Source: Patescibacteria group bacterium (lineage in GTDB: Bacteria > Patescibacteriota > Microgenomatia > UBA1406 > GWC2-37-13). Taken from it: a DNA stretch of 64,000 nt. The position numbers and the translations under genes are program-made. The notes beneath the pieces are model-generated. The model was not told where the DNA came from. It saw nothing but the letters and a program-made list of their open reading frames with translations, and ran no database searches. Location of the stretch: assembly GCA_026004435.1 (NCBI GenBank), contig BPJD01000002.1:1-64000 (forward strand), given 5' to 3'. This document shows, piece after piece, positions 17,763 to 50,087 of the stretch; position 1 is the first letter of the stretch; every line of letters begins with the position of its first letter.

Positions 17763-18772
17763 TTTTTTTTTCTGGCGCAGTAATTTTTTTGTTTGGTTAT
17801 TTTTTAGTCTCAGCTCAGTCTTTAGAGCCTTACTGCAAGGATGGTTATTATGAGATTCCAAATGAGCCTATTTGCAGTAGAGCTCCTAACTGCGATGGTT
17901 ATGGTTATGATAAAACAGCAGAACTGCCTTATCCTAATCCTCAGGCTTGTATGGGAGACGGTAATAATAGATTTGGCTGTGATGGTTGGGTGCCTTTATG
18001 TTGCTATGAGGTTGCCAGAACAGGAGACTTTACCAAATGCGTGGGTTACTGGGAAAGGCTTTGGTGCTCTCCTTATCAGTGTGATGCTGCCAGAGATAAT
18101 GGCGCAAGCGATGATCAGTGTGGCGGCAGTTGTATGTGTGGTCATGCTTTTAAGTCTTACTGCGGCAAAAGACCTGCTTTACCATTAGAAGATAGATTGT
18201 CAGGAAAATACAGTTATGGAACTCGAATAAATCTGCCAACTCCGACTGCTGTGCCAACACCAACGCTGACTTTAGCTCCTACACAAGCTCCAATACCGAC
18301 AGAGAGCAGACCTTATGTTACTGTTGTTTACAGTATTCCAACTTTAACTCCAGTGCCTACTGAGGTTTTTTATGGTTTGAATCCAACTCCTACCCAGTTG
18401 ACTATACAGCCGACTAGTACGCCAACACCAACTCCTGCTAAAAAAACAAGCGGTATACCAAGCTGGTTTTTTGATCAAGATCAGCAGCAGGCTGGTTCAA
18501 GTCCTAAACTTAGTCCAACTCCTGTTAAAAATACAAAGAAACCCAGAAGAAGTTTGTTAGAGTATCTAAAACAGAGAAAAGAAAAGGTAAATGTCAGTCT
18601 AAAGATTGATTATAAAGTTGTTGCTCCTGTTGATGCTGGAATCAATAAGGTTCAAGAAGCCAAAGATGCTGCAATATCTTTTGACAAAAAAATTGCAAAC
18701 AGAATTGATAATTATATTAAAGAGTTAATCTTTAAGTTTCTGCCTGAAAACATAATTTTTTTTCTTAAATAA
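17741..18772 (+). CDS. Secreted Cys-rich protein with Thr/Pro linker
   Basis: This 343-residue protein has a signal peptide (about residues 1-25, ending SAQS). A Cys-rich globular part (about 28-145) contains more than a dozen Cys residues, including CDGWVPLCCYEV and CGGSCMCG, so it is probably disulfide-bonded outside the cell. A long Pro/Thr linker with repeated TPTPT units (about 165-235) and a basic amphipathic C-terminus follow. The family is unknown. It shares one base with the start codon of the next gene (ATAATGG junction), so the two are coupled. Confidence 0.6.
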   Translation: MVLKNSLVFFSGAVIFLFGYFLVSAQSLEPYCKDGYYEIPNEPICSRAPNCDGYGYDKTAELPYPNPQACMGDGNNRFGCDGWVPLCCYEVARTGDFTKCVGYWERLWCSPYQCDAARDNGASDDQCGGSCMCGHAFKSYCGKRPALPLEDRLSGKYSYGTRINLPTPTAVPTPTLTLAPTQAPIPTESRPYVTVVYSIPTLTPVPTEVFYGLNPTPTQLTIQPTSTPTPTPAKKTSGIPSWFFDQDQQQAGSSPKLSPTPVKNTKKPRRSLLEYLKQRKEKVNVSLKIDYKVVAPVDAGINKVQEAKDAAISFDKKIANRIDNYIKELIFKFLPENIIFFLK

Positions 18773-20484
18773 TGGTTAAGTTGTTTAGGCATTTTGTATT
18801 TGGTTTAATTTTGTTTTTTGTTTTAACCGGGCCTGTGTTAGGTTTGTCAAAAAACAAGTTTGGTATACATCTGGCAAGACCAGAGCCTGAAGAAGCAGCT
18901 AAAGCAGCAAGATTAGTAAACGGATCAGGAGGAGAGTGGGGTTATGTTACTGTTGTTATGCAAAGGAATGAGTTGGATCAGGCTCATTGGCAGAGTTTTT
19001 TTGATGAGTTAAGAAGAAATAAGTTAATTCCAATTGTTAGGCTGGCTGAAGAGCCAGATGGAAGTGTTTGGAAAAAACCGGATAAAAAATCTGCGGCTGA
19101 TTGGGTTGCTTTTCTCAATAGTTTAAACTGGGTTGTTAAAGACAGATACATTATTTTGTTTAATGAGCCAAACCATGCCGCAGAATGGGGAGGCAGAGTT
19201 GATCCTCAGGATTATGCTGATACTGCCTTGGAGTTTGCTAAACAATTAAAACAAGCAGACAACAACTATTTTATAATGTTGGCTGGGATTGATCTGGCAG
19301 CTCCTGATGCTATGCCAAACTATATGTCTGCAGAAAAATTTATCTCAGCTGTTATTAAGCGGATAGGCAAGGATAATTTTGAAACATACTTTTCAGGCTG
19401 GTCGAGCCATTCTTATCCAAATCCAAACTTTTCAGCAACAGTTTACAAAACCGGCAGATTAAGCATACAAGGCTATAACTGGGAGCTTAATTTATTAAGA
19501 TCTTTGGGAATAGATAAAGACTTGCCTGTTTTTATAACAGAAACTGGCTGGAAAATGGGTGCAGGCATTACTGAGTCTTTGTTGTCAGAGTATTATGAGT
19601 ATGCCTTTGACCAGGTATGGCTGCCTGACAGTCGTGTAGCTGCTGTAACGCCTTTTATTTTAAATTACCATACCCAGCCTTTTGCCTCTTTTTCTTGGCA
19701 GAAGCCTAATCAGTCTGAGTTTTATGAGTTCTACTATAAAATCTTAAACCTGCCAAAAGAAAAAGGGGAGCCTGAGATTGTTGATTCTGCTCAGATTAAG
19801 GGCTATGTTGGAAAAAAACTAATAGCAAACTCTCATTATAGATTTAAGGTTGAGCTGACAAACACTGGTCAGAAGATTTGGAATTTAAAGGATTATGCTT
19901 TAAGTTTAGTTTCTAAAGATGGACAGGATCTCTCTGAGTTTTTTGATTATAGATTTACTAAAATTCCAAATCTTGAACCTAATCAGAGTTCAGTTGTGTA
20001 TCTTGACTTGGTTACAAAAAAATCAGGAGTAAAGTTTGACCTTCAGCTTGTCTTAAGGGATAGCAAAAATACTAATATTGCAAAAACAGAGTTTTGGTCA
20101 TTAGAAGTAGCAAGATCTCCTTCTTTGTTAATTTCATTAGGTTTGTTTCCTAAGTTTTATAAACCAACAACAGAGGTAGAACTGCAGATCTTTGATACAA
20201 ACGATACATTAGTTTTTAAAAAGAAACCTGTTAAGATTATTAAGGGAGAAGGATTTGTTGATCAAATCTTTAATATTGAGTATGATAAACAGTATAGGGT
20301 AGTTGTTTTAAAGGAGTATTATTTGCCAAGACAGAGTTTTGTTGTGTTTAGAACAGATCAACAGCAGGTTAATTTTAAATCTTTGCTGCCATTAGACTTT
20401 GATGCAGACGGAGCTTTTGAGGTTTTGGATTTGGCCAAGACCTTTTTTAGTTTAAAAGCCTTAGCCAGATGGATGCCTTTTTAA
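18772..20484 (+). CDS. Secreted clan GH-A-like glycoside hydrolase
   Basis: This 570-residue protein has a signal peptide (about 1-24) and a TIM-barrel domain (about 27-330). Two acidic catalytic candidates are at the right places for clan GH-A: NEP in YIILFNEPNH (acid/base) and Glu in VFITETGWKMG (nucleophile). A C-terminal beta-rich part (about 345-550) ends with a DFDADGAFEVLDL segment that looks like a dockerin-type calcium motif. The exact family and substrate are open. It is coupled to the Cys-rich secreted protein upstream. Confidence 0.7.
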   Translation: MVKLFRHFVFGLILFFVLTGPVLGLSKNKFGIHLARPEPEEAAKAARLVNGSGGEWGYVTVVMQRNELDQAHWQSFFDELRRNKLIPIVRLAEEPDGSVWKKPDKKSAADWVAFLNSLNWVVKDRYIILFNEPNHAAEWGGRVDPQDYADTALEFAKQLKQADNNYFIMLAGIDLAAPDAMPNYMSAEKFISAVIKRIGKDNFETYFSGWSSHSYPNPNFSATVYKTGRLSIQGYNWELNLLRSLGIDKDLPVFITETGWKMGAGITESLLSEYYEYAFDQVWLPDSRVAAVTPFILNYHTQPFASFSWQKPNQSEFYEFYYKILNLPKEKGEPEIVDSAQIKGYVGKKLIANSHYRFKVELTNTGQKIWNLKDYALSLVSKDGQDLSEFFDYRFTKIPNLEPNQSSVVYLDLVTKKSGVKFDLQLVLRDSKNTNIAKTEFWSLEVARSPSLLISLGLFPKFYKPTTEVELQIFDTNDTLVFKKKPVKIIKGEGFVDQIFNIEYDKQYRVVVLKEYYLPRQSFVVFRTDQQQVNFKSLLPLDFDADGAFEVLDLAKTFFSLKALARWMPF

Positions 20485-21160: not shown

Positions 21161-21182
21161 TAATAAATTGTACAAAAACTTA

Positions 21183-22325
21183 ATGAAAAAAACATACTTG
21201 CTGATTAGCCTGTTAGTTTTATCAGTTTTTTTATTTATTTGGTTAAGCGGTTTTGAAAAAAAGATTAGTTTAAACTCCAGTAGTAGGGAGGACTTTTCAG
21301 GTATAGAAATCTCTGGTAACAGCCAAGAAACTATTACTTCTTCTGTAAGAAAAACTAAAAAAGACAATGAAAAAAGAGAGTGTTTGCTACTCCCCTACTG
21401 GATAAATCCCAGTAGGGGAGAGGAGTTGTCTGAAAAAGAGGTTTTTTATTTTGGAATTGCTTTTGATTCTGCGGGAAATGTTTTGAATGATTCTGGGTAC
21501 AATAAAATTCAAAGCCTTGACTTAAGTGTTTTTAAAAAGCCAAAAATAGTAGTAAGAATGCTTGATGAAAAGGTGAGCGCAAAAATTCTATCGGATAATA
21601 ATTTGCGGGAAAAAGCAGTTTTCAGCCTTAAAGAATTTACGACATTTAATGAGGAGTTTTATGGGATTGTTTTAGACCTTGAGTTTTCACCTGTTTTTTA
21701 CGATTTTTTGTCAGAAAATATTTCTTTATTTGTAAAAGAATTAAGACAAATGACTCAGGAACAAAACTTAAGTTTTGAGATCATTTTATTTGCTGATAAC
21801 TTTTACAGACAAAGGCCGTATGATGTTGCAGTTATAGCTGATAATGTTGATCAAATCTGGATTATGGCTTATGATTTTTCCAAAAAAACAGGTTTGCCAG
21901 GCCCCAACTTTCCTTTGTTAGGCAAGGAGGTTTATGGTTATGACCTTGTTACAGCTGTAACTGAGTTTCAGAACAGTATGAGTGAGCCTGAAAAGTTAGG
22001 TGTAATCTTTGGCTTGTTTGGCTACGAGTGGGTGGTGGATGATGAGAATAGGCCTTTAAATCAAGCAAAAGCTTTAACAGCAAAGCAGATTAACCAAAAT
22101 TATGTCGTAAATTGTGATGCCAATAAAGACTGCAGTCTCAGGGAGGATCCTTTATCTTACGAAAAAATAATTGAGTTAAGCAACATAAGTTTGCCTGATG
22201 AGCCTGATTATGTTTATCGCAAGCTCCTCTACTTTGATGACCTGTCTACTGTAGCAAACAAAAGAAAAAAAATTGAGCAGTTGGGAGTAAATGACTTTTG
22301 TTTTTGGGCTTATGGGTATTATTAA
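21183..22325 (+). CDS. Membrane-anchored GH18-like glycosidase-fold protein
   Basis: This protein has 380 residues from the ATG at 21183. An N-terminal anchor or signal segment (about 3-25) and a Ser-rich linker are followed by a TIM-barrel-like domain. Its motifs are of GH18 type: FYGIVLDLEF (where GH18 has DxxDxDxE; only D-L-E is clear), VDQIWIMAYDF and a terminal FCFWAYGYY. This resembles spore-coat SleL/YdhD-type relatives of chitinases. Because the catalytic motif is incomplete, activity is uncertain. A TTG at 21168 could extend it by five residues. Confidence 0.6.
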   Translation: MKKTYLLISLLVLSVFLFIWLSGFEKKISLNSSSREDFSGIEISGNSQETITSSVRKTKKDNEKRECLLLPYWINPSRGEELSEKEVFYFGIAFDSAGNVLNDSGYNKIQSLDLSVFKKPKIVVRMLDEKVSAKILSDNNLREKAVFSLKEFTTFNEEFYGIVLDLEFSPVFYDFLSENISLFVKELRQMTQEQNLSFEIILFADNFYRQRPYDVAVIADNVDQIWIMAYDFSKKTGLPGPNFPLLGKEVYGYDLVTAVTEFQNSMSEPEKLGVIFGLFGYEWVVDDENRPLNQAKALTAKQINQNYVVNCDANKDCSLREDPLSYEKIIELSNISLPDEPDYVYRKLLYFDDLSTVANKRKKIEQLGVNDFCFWAYGYY

Positions 22326-27013: not shown

Positions 27014-29071
27014 ATGACTAGAACAAAGCTGTTTTTTGTTGTTTTGTTTTTGGTGTTTAGCCTTTTTGCAGTAATCTCTGCTTCTTGGTTTTTATCAGAT
27101 AAACAACAATCTTTTGATCAAAGTTCTTCTGCTCAAACAGCAAACAACTCTAGCAGATATAACATAGTTTTTATAGTTGCCGATGATATGCCTTATAATC
27201 TATTTAATGTCTACAATAATATATCAGATAATCCTTGGATTGATAACAATATTGAACAGCAAAGGTATCAGGTATCTGTTCAGACTCCTAATTTAGCCAG
27301 ACTTAGTCGTGAGGGAGTTTATTTTAATAAAATGTATGTCTCAATGCCTGAGTGTGTGCCGTCCCGAGGAGCTGTTTTAACAGGTAAATACGCTCATATG
27401 AGCGGCATTGATTCCAATACTTCAGGTTTTAATATTCAAAGAAACAAAGACAACTTGGTTCAGGTGCTAAAAAACAATGGCTACTTTAATTATTTTATTG
27501 GCAAATGTCATTTAGGCTCAGATTATTATGAAGGAGCCTCAAATAGTCGTCAAGCTGTTAATAGACAGAATCCTGCTGATATATTTAAATTTTTGCAGTC
27601 AGTAGGTTTTGATGATGTTGTTTCGTTAATTCCAGATCAAGGTTATGTTTTTGATTGGTATAACTATCAAGTTGCCAGAAATGGAGCCTCGGCCGAAAGC
27701 ATTAACCCTGCTACAATGGGGTCTGAAGCAAGAGCTTATATTACTAATTTCTTAACCAATGAGGCAATTGCCAAGATTAGAACAGCCCGCCAGCCATTTA
27801 TGATGTGGTTGGCTCATGTAACTCCTCATGCCTTGCATTTTGGAACAGAAGATGAAGCCTCTGAAAATACTAATAATCTGCCTCCTTATATTAAATCACA
27901 GACAAAGATCAGAGGCTCTGCTGGCTATAGATATCAGATTAATGATCTGTACCAGCCTCCAAGTTTTAATGCTGGTTTGGCAGATAAACCAATAATCCAA
28001 AGAGATTCTTATCCTGCTTTAGTCTATCAGATTGAAAAAAATAATATTAAAAGGCGTTATCAGGTTGCACATGAGATGGTTAACAATCTAGACACAAGAA
28101 TTGGCGATTTGTTTAAGGCTCTGCAGGAATCTGGAAAACTTGATAATACAATAATTGTTTTTTTTAGTGATAATGGCATCTTGTTTGGTGAGCATAGTAT
28201 GTATCTAAAAGGTCCTGCTTTTTATGAAGAGCTTGTTAGGACACCTTTAATTATCTGGTTTCCGCCAAGTTTAAGATCTAGGTTTAGACAAGGAACAATC
28301 TCTGCTTTAGCTTCTAATATAGATATTGCTCCGACTGTTTTAGATATCTTGAACTTAACTGTGCCAAATGCTATGCAGGGTGTTTCTCAGAAACCAGTTC
28401 TTGAGGGCAGGTCAGTTAAGGTTAGAGACTCGGTTTTGTTGGAGTTTCAGGACTGGGTGCATGGCAAGTATCCTATGAGAGGCATTGTTACTGACGATGG
28501 TTATAAATTTACTCATTATCTTGCTACATCAATTCCCAAACTCTGTGCTAAAGGATTAGATTATTATCAAACTTGCACTCAAGGAGGCAGCTACTCAGGT
28601 AAAGATATGGAGTTTTATGATTTGACTAAAGATCCTTTTGAGTTAAACAACATACTTTATGATAGTAATACTGCCTCTGTAGCTATAGATAACAAGTATA
28701 ACCAGATGATAAGAAGCAACTCTGTTTATAGAGAGGTATTGCTAAAGGTGGGCAGAGAGATGGCCTACCAGCAGACACTAACCAATGATCCTTATAGAGG
28801 AAATATTATGAACTTAAATTACAGAAAACTAACTAACACCTCAGGCCAGTTGAGTTTTACCACAGATAGTTTCAGCATTGCAGAGGTTCAGTATAGACAG
28901 AGCAACTGTTCTAGTTGTCAGACTTATAGGGTTGTTGTTGACAGGCTAAGCAAAACGCATAATATAAGACTTAATAATCTTGAAGTTGGCAAAAGATATG
29001 ATATCAAGGTTTATGCAATAAACTTAAATGTCAATGGCGCTTACAAAGAAATTAATATTTTAGTAAGATAA
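27014..29071 (+). CDS. Membrane-anchored or secreted sulfatase
   Basis: This 685-residue protein has an N-terminal signal or anchor (about residues 5-28). The sulfatase domain begins YNIVFIVADDMPYNLF with the metal-binding Asp pair. The modification motif CVPSR (Cys114-Arg118), followed by GAVLTGKYAHMSGI, is of the Cys type that is converted to formylglycine, although no maturation enzyme is in the window. FFSDNGILFGEH supplies the remaining metal ligands. The last 90 residues look like a fibronectin III-type domain with CSSC. Two GH130 genes follow within 12 bp, suggesting a joint role in breaking down a sulfated glycan. Confidence 0.85.
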   Translation: MTRTKLFFVVLFLVFSLFAVISASWFLSDKQQSFDQSSSAQTANNSSRYNIVFIVADDMPYNLFNVYNNISDNPWIDNNIEQQRYQVSVQTPNLARLSREGVYFNKMYVSMPECVPSRGAVLTGKYAHMSGIDSNTSGFNIQRNKDNLVQVLKNNGYFNYFIGKCHLGSDYYEGASNSRQAVNRQNPADIFKFLQSVGFDDVVSLIPDQGYVFDWYNYQVARNGASAESINPATMGSEARAYITNFLTNEAIAKIRTARQPFMMWLAHVTPHALHFGTEDEASENTNNLPPYIKSQTKIRGSAGYRYQINDLYQPPSFNAGLADKPIIQRDSYPALVYQIEKNNIKRRYQVAHEMVNNLDTRIGDLFKALQESGKLDNTIIVFFSDNGILFGEHSMYLKGPAFYEELVRTPLIIWFPPSLRSRFRQGTISALASNIDIAPTVLDILNLTVPNAMQGVSQKPVLEGRSVKVRDSVLLEFQDWVHGKYPMRGIVTDDGYKFTHYLATSIPKLCAKGLDYYQTCTQGGSYSGKDMEFYDLTKDPFELNNILYDSNTASVAIDNKYNQMIRSNSVYREVLLKVGREMAYQQTLTNDPYRGNIMNLNYRKLTNTSGQLSFTTDSFSIAEVQYRQSNCSSCQTYRVVVDRLSKTHNIRLNNLEVGKRYDIKVYAINLNVNGAYKEINILVR

Positions 29072-29082
29072 ATAGCTGTAGT

Positions 29083-30276
29083 ATGTTTTTTGAAGATAAA
29101 AATAGATACAACTCTAGCTTTAAGTACTTTGCCTTGCTAAAAGACTGGATAAGAAAAGAAAAAAATAAACTGATTGAGACTAAGACAGGCTTGAGCAGTT
29201 TTATCTGCAAGATCAAGTTTCTGGACAAGTTTAATCAGAACCCAATTATTGAACCGAGTGATAATGACTGGGAGAGTTGGCAGACCTTTAATCCCGGAGT
29301 AGTAAATATTAATAATAAGATTCATATAATCTATAGAGCTGTAGGTTCAGATGGTGTCTCCAGGCTGGGTTATGCAGTTTCAAATGATGGTTTTACTATA
29401 CAAAACAGGTTAAGTTACCCTGTTTTTGAGCATAAAGATTTCTCCAGCAGTGGTTCTTATATTAACTACTCTTTAAGTTCTGGAAGTTCATTGGGAGGAG
29501 CTGAAGATCCAAGACCTGTTTATTTTAAGGAAGATAATAGAATCTATATGACTTATACTGCGTTATACAATGGTTTGCGTGTTGGTTTCACTTCAATAGC
29601 AGTCTCTGATTTCCTAAATCAAAGGTGGTTGTGGACAAAACCGATATATCTTTCTCCGCCTAATCAGGTTCATAAAAACTGGGTTTTATTTCCAGAGAAG
29701 ATAAATGGCTATTATGTTTTTCTAACCAGTATTACGCCGGAGATTGTACTGCATCGCAGAAAAACCTTGTTTTTCAGAAAAAATGAGTATATCTCAAGTT
29801 ATTATGATACTACTTTAGGTAGGTCATGGCTGTCTCCCAGAGGCTGGGAGACTAGAGTCAGGGCTGTTGGACCTGTTCCGATAAAAACAAAGTATGGCTG
29901 GTTGGTGTTTTACCATGCAATGGATAATAAAGATCCTGATAAGTATAAAGTAGGAGCTATGCTGCTTGATTTAAATAATCCTAAAAACATAATAGCCAGA
30001 TCTCCGGTTCCTGTGTTGGAGCCTGATACTTTATATGAACTTAATGGCAATAAGCCCGGAATTGTTTATGCTTCTGCTGCAGTTGTTTTTGAAGGCATCT
30101 TAATTATTTATTATGGCGCTTCTGATAATTATATTGCTATAGCTTTTGCTAATCTTGAAAGTTTTTTGCAGGATCTGTTAAGGTATAGAAAACCTAAAAT
30201 AGAGTCTAATAAGTTATTAAAAAAATCAAAATATGCTGGTAACACGATATCAACACAACCCGATTTTATTACCTGA
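29083..30276 (+). CDS. GH130-type mannoside phosphorylase/hydrolase
   Basis: This 397-residue protein has a five-bladed beta-propeller. GH130 enzymes cleave beta-mannosides, mostly by phosphorolysis. Family marks are NPIIEPSDNDWESWQTFNPG at the start of the propeller, HIIYRAVGSDGVSRLGYA, GGAEDPRPVYF and GWLVFYHAMD. The propeller begins near residue 45 after a charged leader; no signal peptide is evident. Its end overlaps the next gene by 44 nt. The exact substrate and mode are not predictable here. Confidence 0.85.
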   Translation: MFFEDKNRYNSSFKYFALLKDWIRKEKNKLIETKTGLSSFICKIKFLDKFNQNPIIEPSDNDWESWQTFNPGVVNINNKIHIIYRAVGSDGVSRLGYAVSNDGFTIQNRLSYPVFEHKDFSSSGSYINYSLSSGSSLGGAEDPRPVYFKEDNRIYMTYTALYNGLRVGFTSIAVSDFLNQRWLWTKPIYLSPPNQVHKNWVLFPEKINGYYVFLTSITPEIVLHRRKTLFFRKNEYISSYYDTTLGRSWLSPRGWETRVRAVGPVPIKTKYGWLVFYHAMDNKDPDKYKVGAMLLDLNNPKNIIARSPVPVLEPDTLYELNGNKPGIVYASAAVVFEGILIIYYGASDNYIAIAFANLESFLQDLLRYRKPKIESNKLLKKSKYAGNTISTQPDFIT

Positions 30277-32149
30277 TAAAACCAATTACTGGGAAGGTAA
30301 AGGCGTTTTTAATGCTTCTCCAATCCAAAAAGACAATAAAATCTATATTTTGTATAGAGCTTTATCATTAAAGCATTTTCATAATCTGACAAATCTGGAG
30401 ATGGAGATCTCAAGCATTGGTTTGGCTGAAAGCTCTGATGGCCTTAATTTTGAAAAAAGAAGAGAGTTTATTACTCCAGACTCAGAGTTTGATATGTATG
30501 GCTGTGAAGATCCTAGAGTTACTTTTTTTGAGGGCAAGTATTATATTTTTTACACAGCCTTGTCTGGTTATCCTTTTTCAAAAGAAAATATTAAGGTTGG
30601 TTGCGCTGTCAGCTCTGACCTGAAAAGTATTGAGTATAAAAAACTAGTTACGCCTTTTAATGCTAAGGCAATGACTTTATTTCCTGAAAGAGTTGGAGGA
30701 AAAATCTGGGCAGCTTTAACTTTAGATACAGACAGCCGTCCAGCGCGTTTTTGTGTTGTTGGTTTTGAGAGTCTTGATCAGTTTTTTGATACTGATTTTT
30801 GGACAGAAATCTATAATAATAAAGAAAGATATACCTTAAACCTGTTAAAAAGAGACAATGACCATTTAGAGGTTGGATCACAACCTATTAAGACAGAAAA
30901 GGGCTGGTTAATATTTTATTCATATATTTACAATTACTTTACTGATCAGCCAGACTTTGCTGTTGAAGCTGTTTTGCTGTCTTTAGATAATCCGTCAGTT
31001 CTTTTGGACAAACTTGAGTATCCGTTATTAACTGCTGAGGAGTATTATGAGAGTTATGGTTATGTGCCTAATGTTGTTTTTCCTTCAGGAGCTTTAGATA
31101 AAAAAGACAGTATTTATCTATATTACAGTTCTGCAGATACAGGTGTCTCAGTTGCGTTTGTAAATAAAAACCTTCTGTTAAATAAGCTGTTTAAATCAAA
31201 AGAGCAACGGCCGTATTTTAAACGAGTCTCAGATGAACCTTTGTTAACTCCAAGATCAGGCTATGACTGGGAGTCTCAGGCTGTTTTTAACCCTGCGTCC
31301 TTATTAATAGACGACAAAATTTATATAGTTTATAGAGCTATGTCTTCTGATAACACATCTACAATGGGTTTGGCTATTTATAATAAGGATCTTAAGTTAG
31401 AGTATAGATCTGAGGAGCCAATTTATTGGCCAAGAACTGAGTATGAGAAAAAATTTATTCCTGGAGGCAACTCGGGCTGTGAGGATCCCAGATTAGTTTT
31501 GCTGGATGATACTATTTATTTGTTTTATACAGCTTATAACGGAAAAGAAGAGCCAAGAGCAGCTGTTGCTACTATCTCGGTTCAGGATTTTTTAAACCGC
31601 AATTGGAACTGGTCTGATCCATTAATTTTGTCTTATAAAAATGTCTCCAATAAGGATGTGTCTATGTTTCCTGAAAAAATAAAAAACAAGTTTTTAATAA
31701 TTCATAGAAGCGGCGGCATTGATATGGATCTGTCTTATCATAACAGTTTTGATGATTTTAAAAACAACATTTTCTTGGAAGAACAGATCTGGGTGCATCC
31801 AAGATCTGGAAGTTGGGACTCAGAAAAGGTTGGTTTGGCAAGCACTCCTTTTAAAACAGACAAAGGATGGGTTATCTTATATCATGGAGTATCAACTTAT
31901 GATAGACATTATAGAGTTGGCGCTGTTCTGGCAGATTCAGATGATCCGGAGAAGATACTAGGCAGGACCTTTTATCCTTTGTTTGAACCAGAGTTAAGCT
32001 GGGAAAAAGAAGGTATTGTTGCCAATGTAGTATTTCCCTGTGGGTCAGTGGTTATAGATGATAAAGTCTATATTTTCTACGGCGGTGCAGATAAGGTAAT
32101 AGGAGCAGCTTATCTAAGTCTAGATGCTTTGCTTGACAGTTTTTGTTGA
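30233..32149 (+). CDS. Tandem double GH130-domain protein
   Basis: This 638-residue protein contains two consecutive GH130 propellers. The first (about residues 1-315) has NPILLPDKTNYWEGKGVFN, YILYRAL, GCEDPRVTFFEGKYYIFYT and GWLIFYS. The second (about 325-638) has EPLLTPRSGYDWESQAVFNP, YIVYRAM, GCEDPRLVLLDDTIYLFYT and GWVILYHGV. Each copy is a full domain, so this is a fusion or internal duplication, not a frameshift. With the gene upstream it gives three GH130 domains in a row. It overlaps that gene by 44 nt, so they share an operon. No export signal is seen. Confidence 0.85.
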   Translation: MLVTRYQHNPILLPDKTNYWEGKGVFNASPIQKDNKIYILYRALSLKHFHNLTNLEMEISSIGLAESSDGLNFEKRREFITPDSEFDMYGCEDPRVTFFEGKYYIFYTALSGYPFSKENIKVGCAVSSDLKSIEYKKLVTPFNAKAMTLFPERVGGKIWAALTLDTDSRPARFCVVGFESLDQFFDTDFWTEIYNNKERYTLNLLKRDNDHLEVGSQPIKTEKGWLIFYSYIYNYFTDQPDFAVEAVLLSLDNPSVLLDKLEYPLLTAEEYYESYGYVPNVVFPSGALDKKDSIYLYYSSADTGVSVAFVNKNLLLNKLFKSKEQRPYFKRVSDEPLLTPRSGYDWESQAVFNPASLLIDDKIYIVYRAMSSDNTSTMGLAIYNKDLKLEYRSEEPIYWPRTEYEKKFIPGGNSGCEDPRLVLLDDTIYLFYTAYNGKEEPRAAVATISVQDFLNRNWNWSDPLILSYKNVSNKDVSMFPEKIKNKFLIIHRSGGIDMDLSYHNSFDDFKNNIFLEEQIWVHPRSGSWDSEKVGLASTPFKTDKGWVILYHGVSTYDRHYRVGAVLADSDDPEKILGRTFYPLFEPELSWEKEGIVANVVFPCGSVVIDDKVYIFYGGADKVIGAAYLSLDALLDSFC

Positions 32150-32300: not shown

Positions 32301-32618
32301 ATGACTTGGGACCAATGTTTAATAAATGGTGAGATTCCCACTTTAGCCTGTTTGGAGGTTGTAATCGGCAAGATAGTTTCTTTTAGCAGTTGGGTGTTTT
32401 TAACAGCTTTATTTGTTATGATTGTAATCGGCGCCTATCAGTATCTTACTGCTTTTGGATCAGAGGATAAGATGTCAAAGGCTCGTTCTACGCTAAAGTT
32501 TGCTTTTATTGGTTTGCTAATTTATCTTGGTTCTTTTTTGATAATTAGAGTTATAGGTCTGCTTTTCTTGGAAAATCCAGAACAGCTTTGGCAGATTAAT
32601 TTAATTAATCCCAACTGA
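32301..32618 (+). CDS. TrbC/VirB2-like pilin-type membrane protein
   Basis: This 105-residue protein has two membrane helices (about residues 28-52 and 66-90) joined by a short loop, YLTAFGSEDKMSKARSTLKF. This follows the same plan as the pilin-like proteins at 4.7, 34.8 and 35.2 kb (G-x-E/D-D-K-x-x-x-AR). It starts with Cys-containing sequence and no long signal peptide. It stands alone between two tRNA genes. Confidence 0.65.
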   Translation: MTWDQCLINGEIPTLACLEVVIGKIVSFSSWVFLTALFVMIVIGAYQYLTAFGSEDKMSKARSTLKFAFIGLLIYLGSFLIIRVIGLLFLENPEQLWQINLINPN

Positions 32619-34815: not shown

Positions 34816-35169
34816 TTATGACTCCCAGTTAATAGCTCCTTTTTCAAGAAGAACCGGGATTTTAATATCACAGGAAATGCCAAAACAAATATTTTGCTGA
34901 AACACAATTTGTTCCAGAGTCCAGGCAATAGCCAGAACAGCAACGATCATAATCAAGCCAATGACAGCGGCAGTTATTTTTTTTCTGGCACCAGAGATTT
35001 TATCATCATCACCGCCGGAGGAGAGCCACTCAAAAGCGCCCATAATCAGGTAGTAAAGAGCAACAAGAGCGGCAATGGTAAAAAATAGCTTAACAGCAAA
35101 TGAAAGAATAGTAACCAAACTAATTTGTGGAATTCCTTCTATTAATTCAGTTGGTGCTGTGTTGTTCAT
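34816..35169 (-). CDS. TrbC/VirB2-like pilin-type membrane protein, copy 2
   Basis: This 117-residue protein has two membrane helices around the loop EWLSSGGDDDKISGARKKIT. It is followed by WTLEQIVFQQNICFGISCDI, which contains two Cys residues. It is almost identical to the neighbour at 35196-35627 over about 85 residues. The N-terminus lacks the signal-peptide-like stretch of that neighbour and has a short NNTAPTELIEGIPQ leader instead. It is 26 bp downstream of the paralogue and probably co-transcribed with it. Confidence 0.7.
   Translation of the reverse strand: MNNTAPTELIEGIPQISLVTILSFAVKLFFTIAALVALYYLIMGAFEWLSSGGDDDKISGARKKITAAVIGLIMIVAVLAIAWTLEQIVFQQNICFGISCDIKIPVLLEKGAINWES
34853..35102. 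repeat. Near-identical tandem duplication, copy A
   Basis: About 250 bp match 35218-35467 at a constant offset of 365 bp, with roughly ten base differences and no gaps. They cover the conserved part of two pilin-like genes. Confidence 0.9.
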
Positions 35170-35195: not shown

Positions 35196-35627
35196 TTATT
35201 GGCTATTTTGCCAGAGAACCGGGATCTTAATATCACAGGAAATACCAAAACAAATATTTTGCTGAAACACAATTTGTTCCAGAGTCCAGGCAATAGCCAG
35301 AACAGCAACGATCATAATCAAGCCAATGACAGCAGCAGTTATTTTTTTTCTGGCACCAGAGATTTTATCATCATCACCGCCGGAGGAGAGCCACTCAAAA
35401 GCGCCCATAATCAGGTAGTAGAGAGCAACAAGAGCGGCAATAGTAAAAAACAGCTTGATTGCAAATGATAATACGCTGACAAGTTTAATCTCAGGTAAAA
35501 CGCCTGTTGCTCCTATTGTTGCAACAGTTATTGCAGATACTGGTCTTGCAAGAAAGTATAGTAAACTGCCTAAGATAAGATAACCAATTTTTTTGTTTTT
35601 AAACATTTTTATTTTTAAAAATTTCAT
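35196..35627 (-). CDS. TrbC/VirB2-like pilin-type membrane protein, copy 1
   Basis: This 143-residue protein has a basic start and a signal-peptide-like helix (about residues 10-33). It then has the same two-helix core as the downstream paralogue (EWLSSGGDDDKISGARKKIT) and the same NICFGISCDI end. The full-length N-terminus suggests it is the ancestral copy and the other a partial duplicate. The function as a pilin is inferred only from the fold family. Confidence 0.7.
   Translation of the reverse strand: MKFLKIKMFKNKKIGYLILGSLLYFLARPVSAITVATIGATGVLPEIKLVSVLSFAIKLFFTIAALVALYYLIMGAFEWLSSGGDDDKISGARKKITAAVIGLIMIVAVLAIAWTLEQIVFQQNICFGISCDIKIPVLWQNSQ
35218..35467. repeat. Near-identical tandem duplication, copy B
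   Basis: This is the partner of 34853-35102. Most differences between the copies are silent or conservative, which points to recent duplication or gene conversion. Confidence 0.9.
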
Positions 35628-44731: not shown

Positions 44732-44770
44732 ATTTTTTTATTTTGGTCTTTAATTTGATAGTTTAATTAG

Positions 44771-45308
44771 GCCTTTTAGTTCCTAACTTTCGATGAGGGC
44801 ATTTTAAATAATTGCCTTTTAGTTCCTAACTTTCGATGACAAACTTTTAAGGAATATGCCTTTTAGTTCCTAACTTTCGATGAGTTGAATTTAAGATTAA
44901 AGCCTTTTAGTTCCTAACTTTCGATGAAGCAAACTTAATCTTTGCGCCTTTTAGTTCCTAACTTTCGATGCAACTCGGCAATTTAACTGCCTTTTAGTTC
45001 CTAACTTTCGATGAAGTCATAGAACTATCTGCCTTTTAGTTCCTAACTTTCGATGCAATTGATTCTAAATTAAGCCTTTTAGTTCCTAACTTTCGATGAA
45101 AAATCTCCAAGTATGCCTTTTAGTTCCTAACTTTCGATGATGTGAAATTACGGTTGTAGCCTTTTAGTTCCTAACTTTCGATGCGTTACATTGTAAATTG
45201 CCTTTTAGTTCCTAACTTTCGATGTGGTTTTATATTGTTAGCCTTTTAGTTCCTAACTTTCGATGAATAATCGTACATTTGTTGCCTTTTAGTTCCTAAC
45301 TTTCGATG
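44771..45308 (-). CRISPR. Type V-D CRISPR array, 13 repeats and 12 spacers
   Basis: There are thirteen identical 25-nt repeats, starting at 44771, 44814, 44858, 44902, 44946, 44989, 45031, 45074, 45115, 45159, 45200, 45241 and 45284. The twelve spacers are, from left to right, 18, 19, 19, 19, 18, 17, 18, 16, 19, 16, 16 and 18 nt. On the minus strand the repeat begins CATCGAAAG, contains the small hairpin AGTT-AGG-AACT and ends AAAAGGC. A repeat of about 25 nt ending in AAGGC and spacers of 17-19 nt are, as I recall, hallmarks of Cas12d (CasY) arrays. The promoter at 45309-45337 fits minus-strand transcription, so the leader-proximal (newest) spacer is the one at 45266-45283. All repeats are intact, with no degenerate end. 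Confidence 0.97.
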
Positions 45309-45337
45309 AGTATATCAAATTTTTAGCATATTTTCAA
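45309..45337 (-). promoter_or_regulatory. CRISPR array promoter abutting the first repeat
   Basis: On the minus strand, TTGAAA (45337-45332), a 17-nt spacer and TATACT (45314-45309) end exactly where the first repeat begins (45308). Transcription would start about seven bases into the first repeat. Confidence 0.75.
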
Positions 45338-45356
45338 TCTGTTTTGCAACTTTGAC

Positions 45357-45386
45357 TTGAAATTTTTCTGTCTTTATTTATATAAT
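45357..45386 (+). promoter_or_regulatory. cas1 promoter
   Basis: TTGAAA (45357-45362), an 18-nt spacer and TATAAT (45381-45386) lie 13 nt before the TTG start of cas1. Confidence 0.6.
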
Positions 45387-45399
45387 TTTAGATAGATTT

Positions 45400-46461
45400 T
45401 TGATCTTTAGCATTTGTTTTTTTAATTTGGTAAAAATAGCTAAATTTTATATCTGGCTTCCTTATTTGAGTAATATTAAGGTTTATCCTAAGTCTGTTTA
45501 TTTTGAGTATAAGGGAGGTGAGCTTAATATTGATTGGGTTAGGATTCATTCTGTTATGATCTATGGTCATTCTGTTGATTTGCCTTGTGATTTTTTGTAT
45601 AAGTGTTGTTTTTATAAAATTCCTGTTGTTGTCCATAGGAGAAATGTTTCTAGGGCTGTTTTTATTTGTTCTAACTTATCTGGAGATTCTGAAAATATTT
45701 TAAGCAGGCAAATTTTATTCCGTAATAATGAGAAGAAAAAAGCATATATAGCAAAAAAGCTGCTTTTGGCAAAGTTCAAAAGTATGTCTTGGTTAGTCCC
45801 TTATAGAAGTGATTATTTGTATAAAGTTTTTAATATTGATGAGATGATGGCTTTTGAGGCTTATCATGCCAGAAAGTATTGGAGAGAATTTTTTAGGCTA
45901 TTAGGAGTTAATGTTAATCGCAGGATAAATGACTCTGTTTATAAAAAAACATTAGATGCTGTCTCAAAATTTTTGTCTGGTATTATGTTACGATGGATTG
46001 TTTTTCATAATCTTAGTCCTTACCATGGTTTTTTACATAAACCTGTTGATTATCCGGCTCTAGTTTATGATTTGATAGAACCTTATAGGGGTTTCTTTGA
46101 TAAGGTCGTTTTCAATGTATTTGTTAAGTTTAAACAGTCAGGAGTTAATCTTGATAAAGCTTTGTCAGCGTCAATTGATGAGATTAAAGAGTTTTTGTCT
46201 TATAAAGTTTATGTTTCTGCAACAAGACAGGTGGTTGGATTTAAAGAACTTTTGCATGGTATTGTTTTGTCATTGAGAACTTATTTGTTGAGCAATACGA
46301 AAAGATTTATTGTTCCTATGCCATCTAAACCAAAGGGTGGTCGGCCAATTAATGCAGGTTATAAATTATATGGTGGTAATGCAGGTATTACTAATTTCTG
46401 GCCGAACACAAAACAGTTTGTTAAGTCTTTTGAGGAAGTTTATTTTAATTTAGATTTCTAA
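45400..46461 (+). CDS. cas1: CRISPR integrase Cas1 (stand-alone)
   Basis: Cas1 inserts new spacers at the leader-repeat junction. The 353-residue protein has the N-terminal beta domain (about 15-90) and the alpha-helical catalytic domain. Metal-site candidates are Glu153 (EAYHARKYW), His209 (SPYHGFLH) and Asp224/Glu227 (YDLIEPYR). No cas2 or cas4 exists nearby, as in type V-C/V-D systems. In those, Cas1 alone acts as a mini-integrase for 17-19-bp fragments, which fits the short spacers here. No ATG start is available: the frame opens with TTG at 45400 (or TTG at 45427). Its last 12 nt overlap the end of convergent cas12d. Confidence 0.95.
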   Translation: MIFSICFFNLVKIAKFYIWLPYLSNIKVYPKSVYFEYKGGELNIDWVRIHSVMIYGHSVDLPCDFLYKCCFYKIPVVVHRRNVSRAVFICSNLSGDSENILSRQILFRNNEKKKAYIAKKLLLAKFKSMSWLVPYRSDYLYKVFNIDEMMAFEAYHARKYWREFFRLLGVNVNRRINDSVYKKTLDAVSKFLSGIMLRWIVFHNLSPYHGFLHKPVDYPALVYDLIEPYRGFFDKVVFNVFVKFKQSGVNLDKALSASIDEIKEFLSYKVYVSATRQVVGFKELLHGIVLSLRTYLLSNTKRFIVPMPSKPKGGRPINAGYKLYGGNAGITNFWPNTKQFVKSFEEVYFNLDF

Positions 46462-49400
46462 CATATTTAAGTTCTTCTTTTGGAATTTTTCTAACATCTC
46501 TATTGTTTCTGTAAAGTATTTTACTTTTATGCTGTTATTTTTTTCTTTCTTGCTTATGTTAATATACCCTCTTAATGCCATTATAAATGCTGCTTGCTTA
46601 TCTGCGTCTGATATTCTGTTGCATTTTGAATTAGGACAAACAAATACTGCGCTGTTTCCTCTTGTTTTTCTTATTTGCTCCAATTTTGTTATGTCAGTTC
46701 CTTTTTCTCTTAATAAATTTAGAACAGCTGAGTTTTGGCTTATCGGAGGTCGAGCAAAGTCTTTTATAATTTTTTGTATTTCTTTTAGAGAATCTTCTGA
46801 TGTTTTTATTTTAGGAACTGTTTTACTGTAAGCATAAAGTTTTATATTTTTTGACTTAAATTCTATTTCAAGTATGTGTTTGTTGGTTTGATGCCTGGTA
46901 ATGTTGACTTCTTTTAAATCAGATATAGAGATCTCATAAAGACTTCTGTTGCAGTAACTGCAAGTGTAGCTGGATGCATATGAGCTTAGGTGTCTGCCTG
47001 GGTATGGAGCTCTTTTGCCCCAAATATGATCATGGTAAATGTTTGTTTTTGTTTTTTCATCATATACATCTGATTTTTTTACTGTTGCGTATATTTTTGT
47101 AGTTCTTCCGCTTCCTGTTTCAAAATTTGAGATTGAGTATTCATATATGATATAGCTGGGCTTGTATTTTATCAGTAGATTGTGAATTTTATTTCTTAAT
47201 GAACCAATAGCTGTTTCTCTGACTTTTGCTACTGTGTTTGTTTTAACATTGAAGTAGCCTTTCCTTGCTTTTTTTTGTATCTCTGAAAATTGATCTTTAA
47301 TTTTTGCTATATTTGGTTCGTGAATAAAACCTGATGTCAAGATATTTATTGTGTTTTCTTCGACTTTTATTATGCAGTAAGCTAAGCCATACTCTCCAAC
47401 ATCTATACCAATTATTGGCCTTGATAACGAATTTTTGTCTTCTTGTAGTTCTTTTAGAGACTGTGTTGTTTTGTCGCTTTCTAAGTTAAAAGGAATATTT
47501 AGGTAAAGTTTTGTTTTTTTGCTGTTTGTTTCTTTAAATTGAGGCAGTCCTGTGTGCAAGTCCCAGTTTATTTTATATTCTTTTTCTAATATAAAGCTCC
47601 ATTCTCCTAATTTTATTTTGCTGGTTTTCCATTTTCTGCTTTTGTATAGAAAGTTGTCTAAAAACTGTGTTTGGTAGTATGAAGAGTTGATTACAAATGA
47701 GTTGTTTAGCTCAGATAAGTCTATTTCCTTAAGTTGGTAACTGTCTTTTTTGAGAGTAATTACATTGATTTTTGTGCTTTTGCTGTTGTTTTTGTCTAAA
47801 CTAATTACATATCTGTGCTGATTTGATATGATCTGGGGTAATAGTTGCTTGTTTAGTTTTTCTTTAATTAGGTTTGAGGTTAGGTATATTGGATAGTCTT
47901 TGTCTGTGGCAATAGACTGGATTGTGTACTTAGCTAAATACTTTTCTTGAGTGTAAATAGTCGCAGAGCCCCTTATCGCTGAAAGTATGAATGCCTGATT
48001 AGTATAGTTGTAATCTGACATTTTAATTTTATTATCATTGAGTAATTCAATGTATTTCTTTGCATCTGTAAAGAGTTTAGGTATTTGAATGTTATCTTTT
48101 GGGATCGAGTTTAATTTGGTTAGTTTTGCAAGTTTTGCTATTATGTGTCTTGATAAATCAATAAAATCTAAAAGCCGGTTTTTGTTTGTTAGTAGTTGTG
48201 CTTCTTGTGTGTTTAGTTGGTTTATTAATTTTTCTAATATTTCTGAATAATTTTCTAGGTTTTGTTTGGTTATGCTAAAGACAGTTTGAGTGCCTTTTTT
48301 ATACGGATTTTGTATAAATGAGTATTTTTCTGTTTTGTTTTCTTTGATGATTTTTATAATTTCAGGGTTAATTCCTTTTAAAATCTCTTCGTAAAGTTCG
48401 TTAAACTCTTTGGAGTTTATTGATTTTGTCTTAATTTTGTTTAATATGAATTCTAATGTGTTTCTGAGTTCTTGTTCGTCTGCTAATTTGTTTTTATCCA
48501 AGTGGTTTTTTAGAAAGTTAATTTGTCGTTGGATATATGCAATACCTTGTTTAAGTATTGGAATAGTTTCTTTAAATATTCTTTCATTTCTTTTGTAGAT
48601 TGATTGACCATAAAATGTCATTGGTTTGTATATTCTATTAAAATAATTTTCTATTTTTTCTTTGGCTTTGTCATTGTCTTTTAGGTTTTTTTGAAAATAA
48701 AAATTGATTTGCTTTTTAAAATCTCCGATTAAAGAATTAATTATTTGACTATTTTCTGGTTCTAAAAACATGTCGGAGTTCTTATTAATTATATTTTGGA
48801 TTTGTTGGACTTTTTCTATTAATTCTTTTGCTTCTTGATCGTTGTTGGTTTCCAGCTCCTTTATTAAACTTTTTAAGTTTTCCTTAAAAATTTCAATCTG
48901 ATTTCTTATTTGTCCCTTTCGTTCTGACATATTTGAAAACCAGCTCTGTACTTTCCCAAAGTTCATTCGGTATTTACTCCAGTTTTTAATCTTTGGCATA
49001 CTTGTTTTTCCAAGTTTTTTTGCTTTTTCTGCAAGATAAGCAAGTGCTTTTTTTACTTTGTCTTTTTCTTGATCGCTATAGTTGTAGATTTTATCTAGTG
49101 CTTTTAATATGTCTTCTAATTTGTTTTGCTGTAGAAATGTTAAGATTTTTCCAAAATAGTTTGATAAACCGTTAAAGTTTTTGTCTGTGAGTAATATGTT
49201 GTTAAGTTCTTCTTTAATTTTTGTTTTTTTTAGTTTTTGCTGCAACCATAGTTTTCTTTTATTAATTAGTTCCTCTACTGTTATGTCGTTGTTGAGGTCT
49301 TCGATTAAATCTGGAACTATTACGAATGTCAATTTCTCTAAAGGCTTTCTGGGCATATAGTCATAAAGTTTTTGTTTGTCTAAATTAAAATACTCTTTCC

Positions 49401-49992
49401 AAAAGTTTATTTGTTGATTTTGGTTTAGTTTTAGTTGGCCTTTTTCATCAAAGATGGCCTCTAGGATAAAGTTAATTGTGTTTTCTGCTAATTTTTTGTC
49501 AGCTTGCTCTTGTATCATCTCCTCTAATTTTTTCTTATAAGATGCTTTTGTTGTTTTGCTTCTTATTTCTTCTGTTAGGATAAGATTGTTTTTGATTTGT
49601 TTGGGTTCGAAAATTTTAAGTTCATCTTTAGCATTTTCAAGGATTTTGTCAATTATGCTTTTTTCCTGCTTTATTTTTGATTGGACAAAGTATATTAGGT
49701 TAAATAATGATGACTGCCAAATAACGCCTGCTTTTAATGAATCTATCCAGAAATTTATTATTGTGTAAAAATCTTTTTTATTAACATAGTAGTCATAATA
49801 GTCGTTTAGGTTAACACATCCTCTTATCTTATGGTCATCATTTATTATTTTTTCTGAGATTGTTGTTAGATCTTTATTTGTGTTGTCATATGGCGTAATA
49901 GGGTATTTAATGCTTCTTATTATAGCTCTATGAGATATCTGGAGTCTTTTGTTATGCAGTTTGTATCCTAATGTGTTAAATTTGTCGTGCAT
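46450..49992 (-). CDS. cas12d: CRISPR effector nuclease Cas12d (CasY)
   Basis: This is an RNA-guided DNA endonuclease with a single RuvC site. From the ATG at 49992 it has 1180 residues; a TTG at 50034 would give 1194. It aligns by eye with CasY proteins I remember, in the N-terminal GYKLHNKRLQ...RSIKYPI, in SSYYQTQFLDNFL before the nuclease and throughout the RuvC part. In 1194 numbering the catalytic residues are Asp878 (GIDVGEYG), Glu965 (IIYEYSISN) and Asp1145 (ISDADKQAAF). A zinc-finger-like insert has Cys1025/1028 (CSYC) and Cys1133/1138 (CPNSKC). All are intact, so it should be active. The ATG is preferred because the region upstream holds the structured RNA and its second anti-repeat, which the TTG start would overlap. 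The gene is convergent with cas1. Confidence 0.95.
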   Translation of the reverse strand: MHDKFNTLGYKLHNKRLQISHRAIIRSIKYPITPYDNTNKDLTTISEKIINDDHKIRGCVNLNDYYDYYVNKKDFYTIINFWIDSLKAGVIWQSSLFNLIYFVQSKIKQEKSIIDKILENAKDELKIFEPKQIKNNLILTEEIRSKTTKASYKKKLEEMIQEQADKKLAENTINFILEAIFDEKGQLKLNQNQQINFWKEYFNLDKQKLYDYMPRKPLEKLTFVIVPDLIEDLNNDITVEELINKRKLWLQQKLKKTKIKEELNNILLTDKNFNGLSNYFGKILTFLQQNKLEDILKALDKIYNYSDQEKDKVKKALAYLAEKAKKLGKTSMPKIKNWSKYRMNFGKVQSWFSNMSERKGQIRNQIEIFKENLKSLIKELETNNDQEAKELIEKVQQIQNIINKNSDMFLEPENSQIINSLIGDFKKQINFYFQKNLKDNDKAKEKIENYFNRIYKPMTFYGQSIYKRNERIFKETIPILKQGIAYIQRQINFLKNHLDKNKLADEQELRNTLEFILNKIKTKSINSKEFNELYEEILKGINPEIIKIIKENKTEKYSFIQNPYKKGTQTVFSITKQNLENYSEILEKLINQLNTQEAQLLTNKNRLLDFIDLSRHIIAKLAKLTKLNSIPKDNIQIPKLFTDAKKYIELLNDNKIKMSDYNYTNQAFILSAIRGSATIYTQEKYLAKYTIQSIATDKDYPIYLTSNLIKEKLNKQLLPQIISNQHRYVISLDKNNSKSTKINVITLKKDSYQLKEIDLSELNNSFVINSSYYQTQFLDNFLYKSRKWKTSKIKLGEWSFILEKEYKINWDLHTGLPQFKETNSKKTKLYLNIPFNLESDKTTQSLKELQEDKNSLSRPIIGIDVGEYGLAYCIIKVEENTINILTSGFIHEPNIAKIKDQFSEIQKKARKGYFNVKTNTVAKVRETAIGSLRNKIHNLLIKYKPSYIIYEYSISNFETGSGRTTKIYATVKKSDVYDEKTKTNIYHDHIWGKRAPYPGRHLSSYASSYTCSYCNRSLYEISISDLKEVNITRHQTNKHILEIEFKSKNIKLYAYSKTVPKIKTSEDSLKEIQKIIKDFARPPISQNSAVLNLLREKGTDITKLEQIRKTRGNSAVFVCPNSKCNRISDADKQAAFIMALRGYINISKKEKNNSIKVKYFTETIEMLEKFQKKNLNMLEI

Positions 49993-50012
49993 CAGTTTTT
50001 TTAAGTTTTTGT

Positions 50013-50087
50013 GAGCTCTTGCAGTAAAAGGCAACGATCTGCAAATGCGGATCGGGAAACCGCAAGAGCTCTGAGTTAGGAACTCAT
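50013..50087 (-). ncRNA. Candidate scoutRNA/tracr-like RNA with two anti-repeats
   Basis: This structured element sits between the cas12d promoter and cas12d. Read on the minus strand it opens with the hairpin TGAGTT-CCT-AACTCA (50086-50072), whose AGTTCCTAACT (50084-50074) is an 11-nt exact complement of the crRNA repeat, positions 8-18. A perfect 10-bp stem follows (50071-50062 with 50022-50013). It encloses a CGATC/GATCG hairpin and a loop with GCCTTTTA (50032-50025), an 8-nt exact complement of the repeat's 3' end (positions 18-25). Cas12d is known to need a short-complementarity RNA (scoutRNA). No terminator separates this element from cas12d, so it may be cut out of the cas12d leader. 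Confidence 0.75.

Follow-up and report, generated by a model that had tools for sequence, protein, structure and literature searches.

The window analysed here is a 64,000-nucleotide stretch of contig BPJD01000002.1 from a Patescibacteria group bacterium, and it carries a pair of overlapping genes, A and B, that together encode three GH130 domains: one in A and two, called B-N and B-C, fused in B. We found that the A-B pair is the conserved unit at this locus, recurring in many genomes of the candidate phyla radiation (CPR), and that its three domains carry three active-site types which, to judge from the aligned sequences, are fixed patterns rather than decay. The layout, residues, conservation and neighbours of the genes suggest their activities, compartment and direction of flux: we consider it fairly probable that A and B form a cytoplasmic set for beta-1,2-mannosides (oligomannans) that exchanges mannose with central metabolism via alpha-mannose-1-phosphate and includes two specialised partner sites. 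The genes and domains are:

27014..29071, + strand: S1-type sulfatase, 685 aa (PF00884, E=9.7e-46)
29083..30276, + strand: gene A, 397 aa (PF04041, E=4.8e-39, 134.6 bits against a cut-off of 26)
30233..32149, + strand: gene B, fused double GH130, 638 aa (PF04041, E=2.6e-88, 296.5 bits, two stretches)
30233..31219, + strand: domain B-N of gene B, residues 1-329 (D93, K145, T163, D210, H211, E213)
31208..32146, + strand: domain B-C of gene B, residues 326-638 (D418, K474, H491, R492, K532, D620)

An earlier note on this DNA had described a sulfatase followed by a single GH130 protein and a fused double GH130 protein with overlapping genes, and the open reading frames (ORFs) and Pfam matches confirm this arrangement. 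The sulfatase and A are separated by 11 bp, and A and B overlap by 44 bp. Both A and B belong to GH130, with PF04041 matches above the curated cut-off and the GH130 propeller fold in structure models. Gene A consists of about 46 helical N-terminal residues and one GH130 domain (residues 44-375). The window's genome (G000; 885,411 bases, 98% complete) holds three PF04041 matches and one PF00884 match, every one at this locus. The sulfatase-A-B order recurred in G001, the only same-genus genome examined, where the overlap is likewise 44 bp (B starts at 12105, A ends at 12148). Amino-acid identity between the two genomes was 79% for the sulfatase, 84% for A and 85% for B, and the ratios of nonsynonymous to synonymous substitution (dN/dS; 0.075, 0.082 and 0.075, respectively) indicate purifying selection. 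Because order, identity and low dN/dS are shared with G001, all three look like working genes. Degeneration of A, B and the sulfatase was ruled out by dN/dS of 0.075-0.082 together with the fixed new residues in A and B-N.

Occurrence of the A-B pair

A genome scan with the patterns [ED]x[YF]GCEDPR and TPFN[AS]KAM matched at least 584 stretches, at least 511 of which encode relatives of B, and the best 80 of these at least 511 were kept as loci. The check for a double GH130 covered these best 80 only, and all 80 proved to have one. Tandem GH130 fusions, which the earlier note had taken to be unusual, are thus common in CPR genomes. Gene A lies directly upstream of B in 72 of the 80 loci, in a short form in 55 and with a long N-terminal extension in 17; the other 8 have no adjacent A, and in 6 of these the upstream flank is short. 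The deposited labels comprise 53 CPR lineage names, 15 entries named only 'bacterium', and 12 others (Dehalococcoidia 3, Nanoarchaeota 2, Omnitrophota 2, and one each of Chloroflexi, Bacteroidetes, Jordarchaeum, Syntrophaceae and Babeliales). At L093 (1219-4377), in a metagenome-assembled genome (MAG) labelled Jordarchaeum, B is extended to a 1052-aa ORF, the extra part being C-terminal.

Closer to the window, PF04041 was found in 28 of 57 relatives, and we compared the window with 15 other genomes over their GH130 regions and with one further sulfatase region. Thirteen genomes, the window's included, have B, each with A adjoining (in G045, A is cut by the contig end), and three of the compared genomes carry single GH130 genes. 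Gene A is long (512-640 aa) in 10 relatives and short in G000 and G001; in 8 of the 10 long forms the N-terminus has an additional stretch with faint GH130 likeness (7 to 45 bits with a custom profile; for example L049, 7371-9257). In a phylum sample of 240 genomes, PF04041 was present in 39, and our reading of the match rows places the array in 14 of these.

Three active-site types on one fold

Residues were compared in alignments of 83 A, 93 B-N and 93 B-C sequences, numbered as in Teth514_1789; the A set comprises 70 sequences from the loci, after two partial ones were dropped, and 13 from relatives, one of them cut by a contig end. Because E97, D98, R100 and, in B-N, K148-A149-M150 lie within the search patterns, their conservation is partly built in; columns 166, 199, 200, 201 and 202 lie outside these patterns. 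The catalytic Asp98 and Lys148 were kept in all domains (A 83/83, B-N 93/93, B-C 93/93). In one study, the lysine in the 148 column is tied to beta-1,2 linkages and three basic residues are said to bind phosphate (PMC4599007). By their position and that statement, and leaving the third basic residue aside, we take Arg166 and Lys200 to be the probable phosphate-binding pair.

B-C carries every residue that we applied as a mark of beta-1,2-mannoside phosphorylases, with His165-Arg166 in 93 of 93 sequences and Lys (91) or Arg (2) in column 200. Its nearest solved relatives by both sequence and fold are the phosphorylases Teth514_1788 and Teth514_1789. In a model of B built from 13 sequences (pLDDT 91.6, pTM 0.58), the C-terminal half matched 7fip with a Z of 43.4 and a root-mean-square deviation (rmsd) of 1.4 over 288 aligned residues, and the N-terminal half matched 1vkd (Z 36.2, rmsd 2.3, 288 aligned). 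A model of A from 16 sequences (pLDDT 77.2, pTM 0.77) matched 9gph (Z 32.6, rmsd 2.7, 276 aligned). Structures of GT108 enzymes gave a Z of 24-26 with the B model, and 6q4y a Z of 20.1 with the A model.

The other two domains depart from the phosphorylase pattern, each in its own way. B-N keeps Asp98 and Lys148 and has Arg166 in none of 93 sequences (T 61, S 28, A 4) and Lys200 likewise in none; Asp199 is present in 92 of 93. All 93 have a Glu in column 202 (E213 in B), where the Bacteroides beta-1,2-mannosidase BT3780 has Glu268, and the motif reads 'KAM...L-T...DxxExG'. Depending on the loop alignment, this Glu falls one or two residues away from the Lys200 column; two programs place it on Glu268, the profile-profile alignment (hhalign) among them. 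Of the two glutamates of BT3780, B-N therefore has the Glu268 column only: Glu227 adjoins the Arg166 column, where B-N has T or S in 89 of 93 sequences and hhalign leaves a gap.

This bears on a tentative and rather unlikely alternative, namely that B-N is a beta-1,2-mannosidase, a hydrolase with a single Glu base fused to the phosphorylase B-C. The coincidence of Glu213 with Glu268 in two alignments and its full conservation speak for it. Moreover, as reported in the BT3780 study, E268 mutants retain 0.4-0.5% activity and E227Q 3.2% (PMC4599007), and since the E268 mutants are the less active, B-N would retain the more important of the two base glutamates. Yet the counterpart of Glu227 is missing, relative to BT3780 the ExG motif is one residue further from the prolines that come after it, the placement of Glu213 comes from sequence alignment, and a cytoplasmic hydrolase beside a phosphorylase would waste the phosphate bond.

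In gene A, Arg166 and Lys200 are both kept in 28 of 83 sequences and both lost in 55. The 55 form a single clade (support 1.0) with residues of their own, Trp150 (55/55), Asn149 (54/55) and Arg201 (55/55), and with the motif 'KNW...H-S/N...x-R-G'. The A genes of G000 and G001 fall in this clade. The window's A is of this phosphate-site-lost type: it keeps D142 and K198, followed by N199 and W200, has S216 in the Arg column and V259, followed by R260, in the Lys column, lacks the full phosphorylase set accordingly, and has neither Glu of BT3780.

The earlier note's claim that the three GH130 copies differ was thus borne out, in that they are three conserved, specialised types with the catalytic Asp in all. 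Its proposal that they handle successive linkages was not supported, as all keep the beta-1,2 lysine and the difference lies in the phosphate or nucleophile site. The loss of catalytic residues from the extra domains, which the note had named as grounds for abandoning its idea, applies in part: the Asp is retained everywhere, and the aligned phosphate-site residues are gone from two of the three domains.

That same loss, with the mannose site kept, would also suit A and B-N being non-catalytic and binding or positioning beta-1,2-mannan for B-C, as would the further, hardly recognisable GH130-like N-terminal domain of some A proteins. We regard this as unlikely, for a pure binding role would need neither the catalytic Asp, kept in 83 of 83 A and 93 of 93 B-N sequences, nor the fixation of new residues. 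In the reading we favour, B-C would be a genuine beta-1,2-mannoside phosphorylase, attaching or releasing mannose one unit at a time. The same type of mannose chain end would be bound by B-N and A through the shared catalytic Asp and the beta-1,2 lysine, and these two would act as specialised partners that lack the aligned phosphate-site residues. B-N would most likely be a mannosidase-like trimming site, its conserved Glu lying close to where a phosphorylase has its phosphate, and A a second, separately conserved site, to which we assigned no putative nucleophile.

Each domain class was monophyletic in the tree (support 0.997 for A, 1.0 for B-N and 0.70 for B-C), which suggests that the three sites are of old origin and have been passed on together. 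In a tree of the joined domains (midpoint root), G000 and G001 grouped with L069, from a MAG labelled Campbellbacteria (0.989), inside a clade of 28 (0.944). Eight units of the same family, together with G042, G045 and G054, fell in a separate clade of 15 with a support of only 0.551, and A of all 11 keeps the Arg and Lys. Acquisition of the pair by this genus through horizontal transfer appears the likeliest explanation.

Neighbouring genes and the rest of the window

Genes for a mannose-6-phosphate isomerase, a phosphomannomutase-like HAD protein and a nucleotidyltransferase of sugar-phosphate type adjoin the pair in many CPR genomes. We named these neighbour families from one representative each (two for the phosphomannomutase-like cluster). 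The isomerase cupin cluster (PF01050) occurs at 32 of the 80 loci, upstream of the pair in 24 of the 32 and on the same strand in 31. The phosphomannomutase-like cluster (PF03332/PF08282) was found at 17 loci, the nucleotidyltransferase (PF01467; best NCBIfam match rfaE domain II, below its cut-off) at 11, and a HAD-IIB protein at 8, with at least one of the four at 40 loci. The full order nucleotidyltransferase, mutase, isomerase, A, B is seen, for example, at L112. Genes of this module accompany the phosphate-site-lost A in 32 of 53 loci and the kept type in 4 of 17 (p=0.012, with loci non-independent). In the phylum sample, which may overlap the 80 loci, PF01050 or PF03332 is matched no more than 0.7 kb from the array in 6 of the 14 genomes that carry it; a binomial estimate for this count was set aside because it treats the loci as independent. 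PF03332 is enriched there, being present in 6 of 14 array genomes against 32 of 226 others (Fisher p=0.012, genomes non-independent). The co-occurrence of PF01050 across genomes was set aside as support (p=0.49); adjacency alone supports that link. At L073 (7221-8498), a single protein next to the GH130 pair combines the nucleotidyltransferase and phosphomannomutase-like domains, and L069 and L081 perhaps have the same fusion, as judged from length only.

A nucleotidyltransferase beside the pair invites the alternative that A, B-N or both are nucleotide-sugar-dependent beta-1,2-mannosyltransferases, like GT108 of Leishmania, with B-C mobilising the polymer in a reserve or capping cycle. Two domains have indeed lost the aligned phosphate-site residues and kept the mannose site, and PF01467 stands beside the pair at the 11 loci just mentioned and is joined to the mutase-like domain at L073. 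The nucleotidyltransferase accompanies the lost-type A in 13 of 53 loci and the kept type in 0 of 17 (three fusions counted, two of them from length). GDP-mannose-dependent GT108 enzymes share the fold (Z 24-25 with B and 20 with A), and one GT108 entry title names an inactive Asp-to-Asn variant. However, GH130 structures match A and B far better than GT108 does, and we recognised no nucleotide-sugar site in either protein. The nucleotidyltransferase was, moreover, seen in the loci of relatives, with no substrate assigned. On balance we think this alternative improbable.

Several observations weigh against a mannose-phosphate-exchanging set. Forty of the 80 loci, many of them on short contigs, have none of the four neighbours, and PF01050 showed no significant enrichment among array genomes (4 of 14 against 45 of 226 above cut-off; Fisher p=0.49, genomes non-independent). 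No such conserved neighbour was seen around the 8 same-family units. Neither PF01050 nor PF03332 is matched in G000, and the neighbour argument therefore comes from relatives; G000 does carry PF02878 (PGM/PMM-type) and PF10432 (PGI/PMI-type) genes elsewhere in the genome which, going by family name, could perform the mutase and isomerase steps. We identified no mannan source, transporter or export gene. B-N has no residue corresponding to Glu227, and in the A clade the invariant Arg201 (R260), next to the lost Lys, might restore phosphate binding. To our knowledge, no member of the A or B families has a known activity. A bolder form of the favoured reading, which we put forward as speculative and rather doubtful, is a mannogen-like beta-1,2-mannan cycle shared across CPR. 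In it, a fixed three-site GH130 set would combine one phosphorylase (B-C) with two site types not described before, one of them building from nucleotide sugar or cleaving with water, and would be fed in many lineages by an isomerase-mutase-nucleotidyltransferase operon.

The gene upstream of the pair encodes a predicted sulfatase with the motifs of S1 formylglycine enzymes. CVPSR is intact at residues 114-118 (Cys114) in both G000 and G001. The DD, GKxxH, HxxPH and SDNG motifs are present in both genomes and a KxPA pattern in G000 only; we presume that these serve in the active site. A weak fn3 match at the C-terminus was below cut-off. Matches to the sulfatase occurred in 6 of 57 genomes (the window's own and relatives): near full length in G000, in G001 and twice in G031, and as short stretches only in G051, G027 and G020. 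G031, of the same family, has its two relatives (33-35% identity) on a different contig from its GH130 pair, and a blastp search of the ORFs called at the other 80 pair loci found none. Beside the pair, the sulfatase was seen only in G000 and G001. In G031 (L061, 5756-11890), the two relatives lie in tandem (ORFs of 874 and 825 aa) beside a cohesin-domain protein; one has CKASR, whereas the corresponding stretch of the other gives no [CS]x[PA]x[RK] match, and PF03781 likewise had no match in G031.

For sulfatase maturation, the search of G000 was negative for two known maturase families, PF03781 (no match; present in 4 of the 57 genomes) and TIGR03942 (no match at E<=1; in a control, detected in 14 of 14 known genomes and above cut-off in 2). 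The lack of a maturation gene, which the earlier note had named as refuting its idea, thus holds as far as these two families go. Three PF04055 genes are present, which we read as MiaB-, Elp3- and MtaB-like. The sulfatase may be unmatured or matured by an unrecognised maturase, or the gene it needs may lie in the portion of the genome that is missing.

The earlier note had proposed that the sulfatase and the GH130 domains jointly degrade a sulfated mannan-like glycan, possibly from a host surface. The genes are adjacent and co-directional in both genus genomes examined, and all are under purifying selection. Nevertheless, the sulfatase is missing from the ORFs called at the 80 pair loci, its relatives in G031 sit on another contig than the pair, no recognised maturase was found, and neither an endo-mannanase nor a glycan importer was identified in its vicinity. 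By eye, its N-terminus is hydrophobic and it looks exported, while those of A and B have no hydrophobic stretch. We therefore consider joint degradation very unlikely and the proposal unsupported; the sulfatase looks like a separate gene of this genus, probably with an extracytoplasmic product, and an upstream neighbour outside the conserved unit.

Elsewhere in the window, a type V-D-like CRISPR locus spans 44767-50034. Its repeat spacing of 41-44 nt implies very short spacers. The other features are:

18772-20484, + strand: weak GH5-like protein with a lamin-tail-like match; hydrophobic N-terminus (by eye), counterpart in G001
21168-22325, + strand: GH18 protein; hydrophobic N-terminus (by eye), counterpart in G001
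32301-32618, + strand: weak T4SS_pilin match, just below cut-off
34816-35169 and 35196-35627, - strand: small membrane protein pair with nearly identical cores, the first matching T4SS_pilin
44767-45333: CRISPR repeat array, 12 copies listed in register, spacing 41-44 nt and once 87
45400-46461, + strand: Cas1
46450-50034, - strand: Cas12d-matching protein, 1194 aa, E=3.1e-118

Relation to known systems

Pathways are few in CPR bacteria, and two enzymes retained together in many lineages are therefore likely to be important to them. With three different nucleophile sites fixed on a single mannoside-binding fold, the pair is a direct test ground for how GH130 shifts between phosphorolysis, hydrolysis and transfer. 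It also lets one ask whether CPR bacteria produce a reserve or surface glycan of beta-1,2-mannan, and it cautions that not every GH130 domain in CPR genomes is a phosphorylase.

In searches of an open-licence collection, from which most subscription papers are missing, we found no description of a fused or three-site GH130 set. Within CPR, the Microgenomates genome Ch65 resembles the present case in having two GH130 genes; those of Ch65 lack signal peptides and were read as intracellular (PMC7143001); the accessible part of that account gives no domain architecture, residue types or neighbours for them. The GT108 enzymes of Leishmania (MPT/MTP), mannogen beta-1,2-mannosyltransferases and phosphorylases, share the propeller fold and exemplify a beta-1,2-mannan set of several members, some dependent on sugar nucleotides and others phosphorylases (PMC8950772 and structure entry titles). 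A and B are, however, much closer to GH130 by sequence and modelled fold, and the likeness to GT108 appears to be one of fold only. B-N resembles the Bacteroides GH130 beta-1,2-mannosidases BT3780 and BACOVA_03624 in the Glu of the Glu268 column, the Asp and the beta-1,2 Lys (PMC4599007), and differs from BT3780 in lacking Glu227, in showing, by eye, no sign of a signal peptide, and in being fused to a phosphorylase domain.

Teth514_1788 and Teth514_1789 of Thermoanaerobacter X-514 are adjacent GH130 genes for a 1,2-beta-oligomannan phosphorylase and a beta-1,2-mannobiose phosphorylase, set in a mannose-phosphate/GDP-mannose gene cluster (PMC4264767). Both are phosphorylases and separate proteins, whereas A-B has three domains, two of them fused and two without the aligned phosphate-site residues. 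With two adjacent GH130 genes, and with B-C like both enzymes in sequence, fold and the key residues tested, this pair is the closest known arrangement to A-B.

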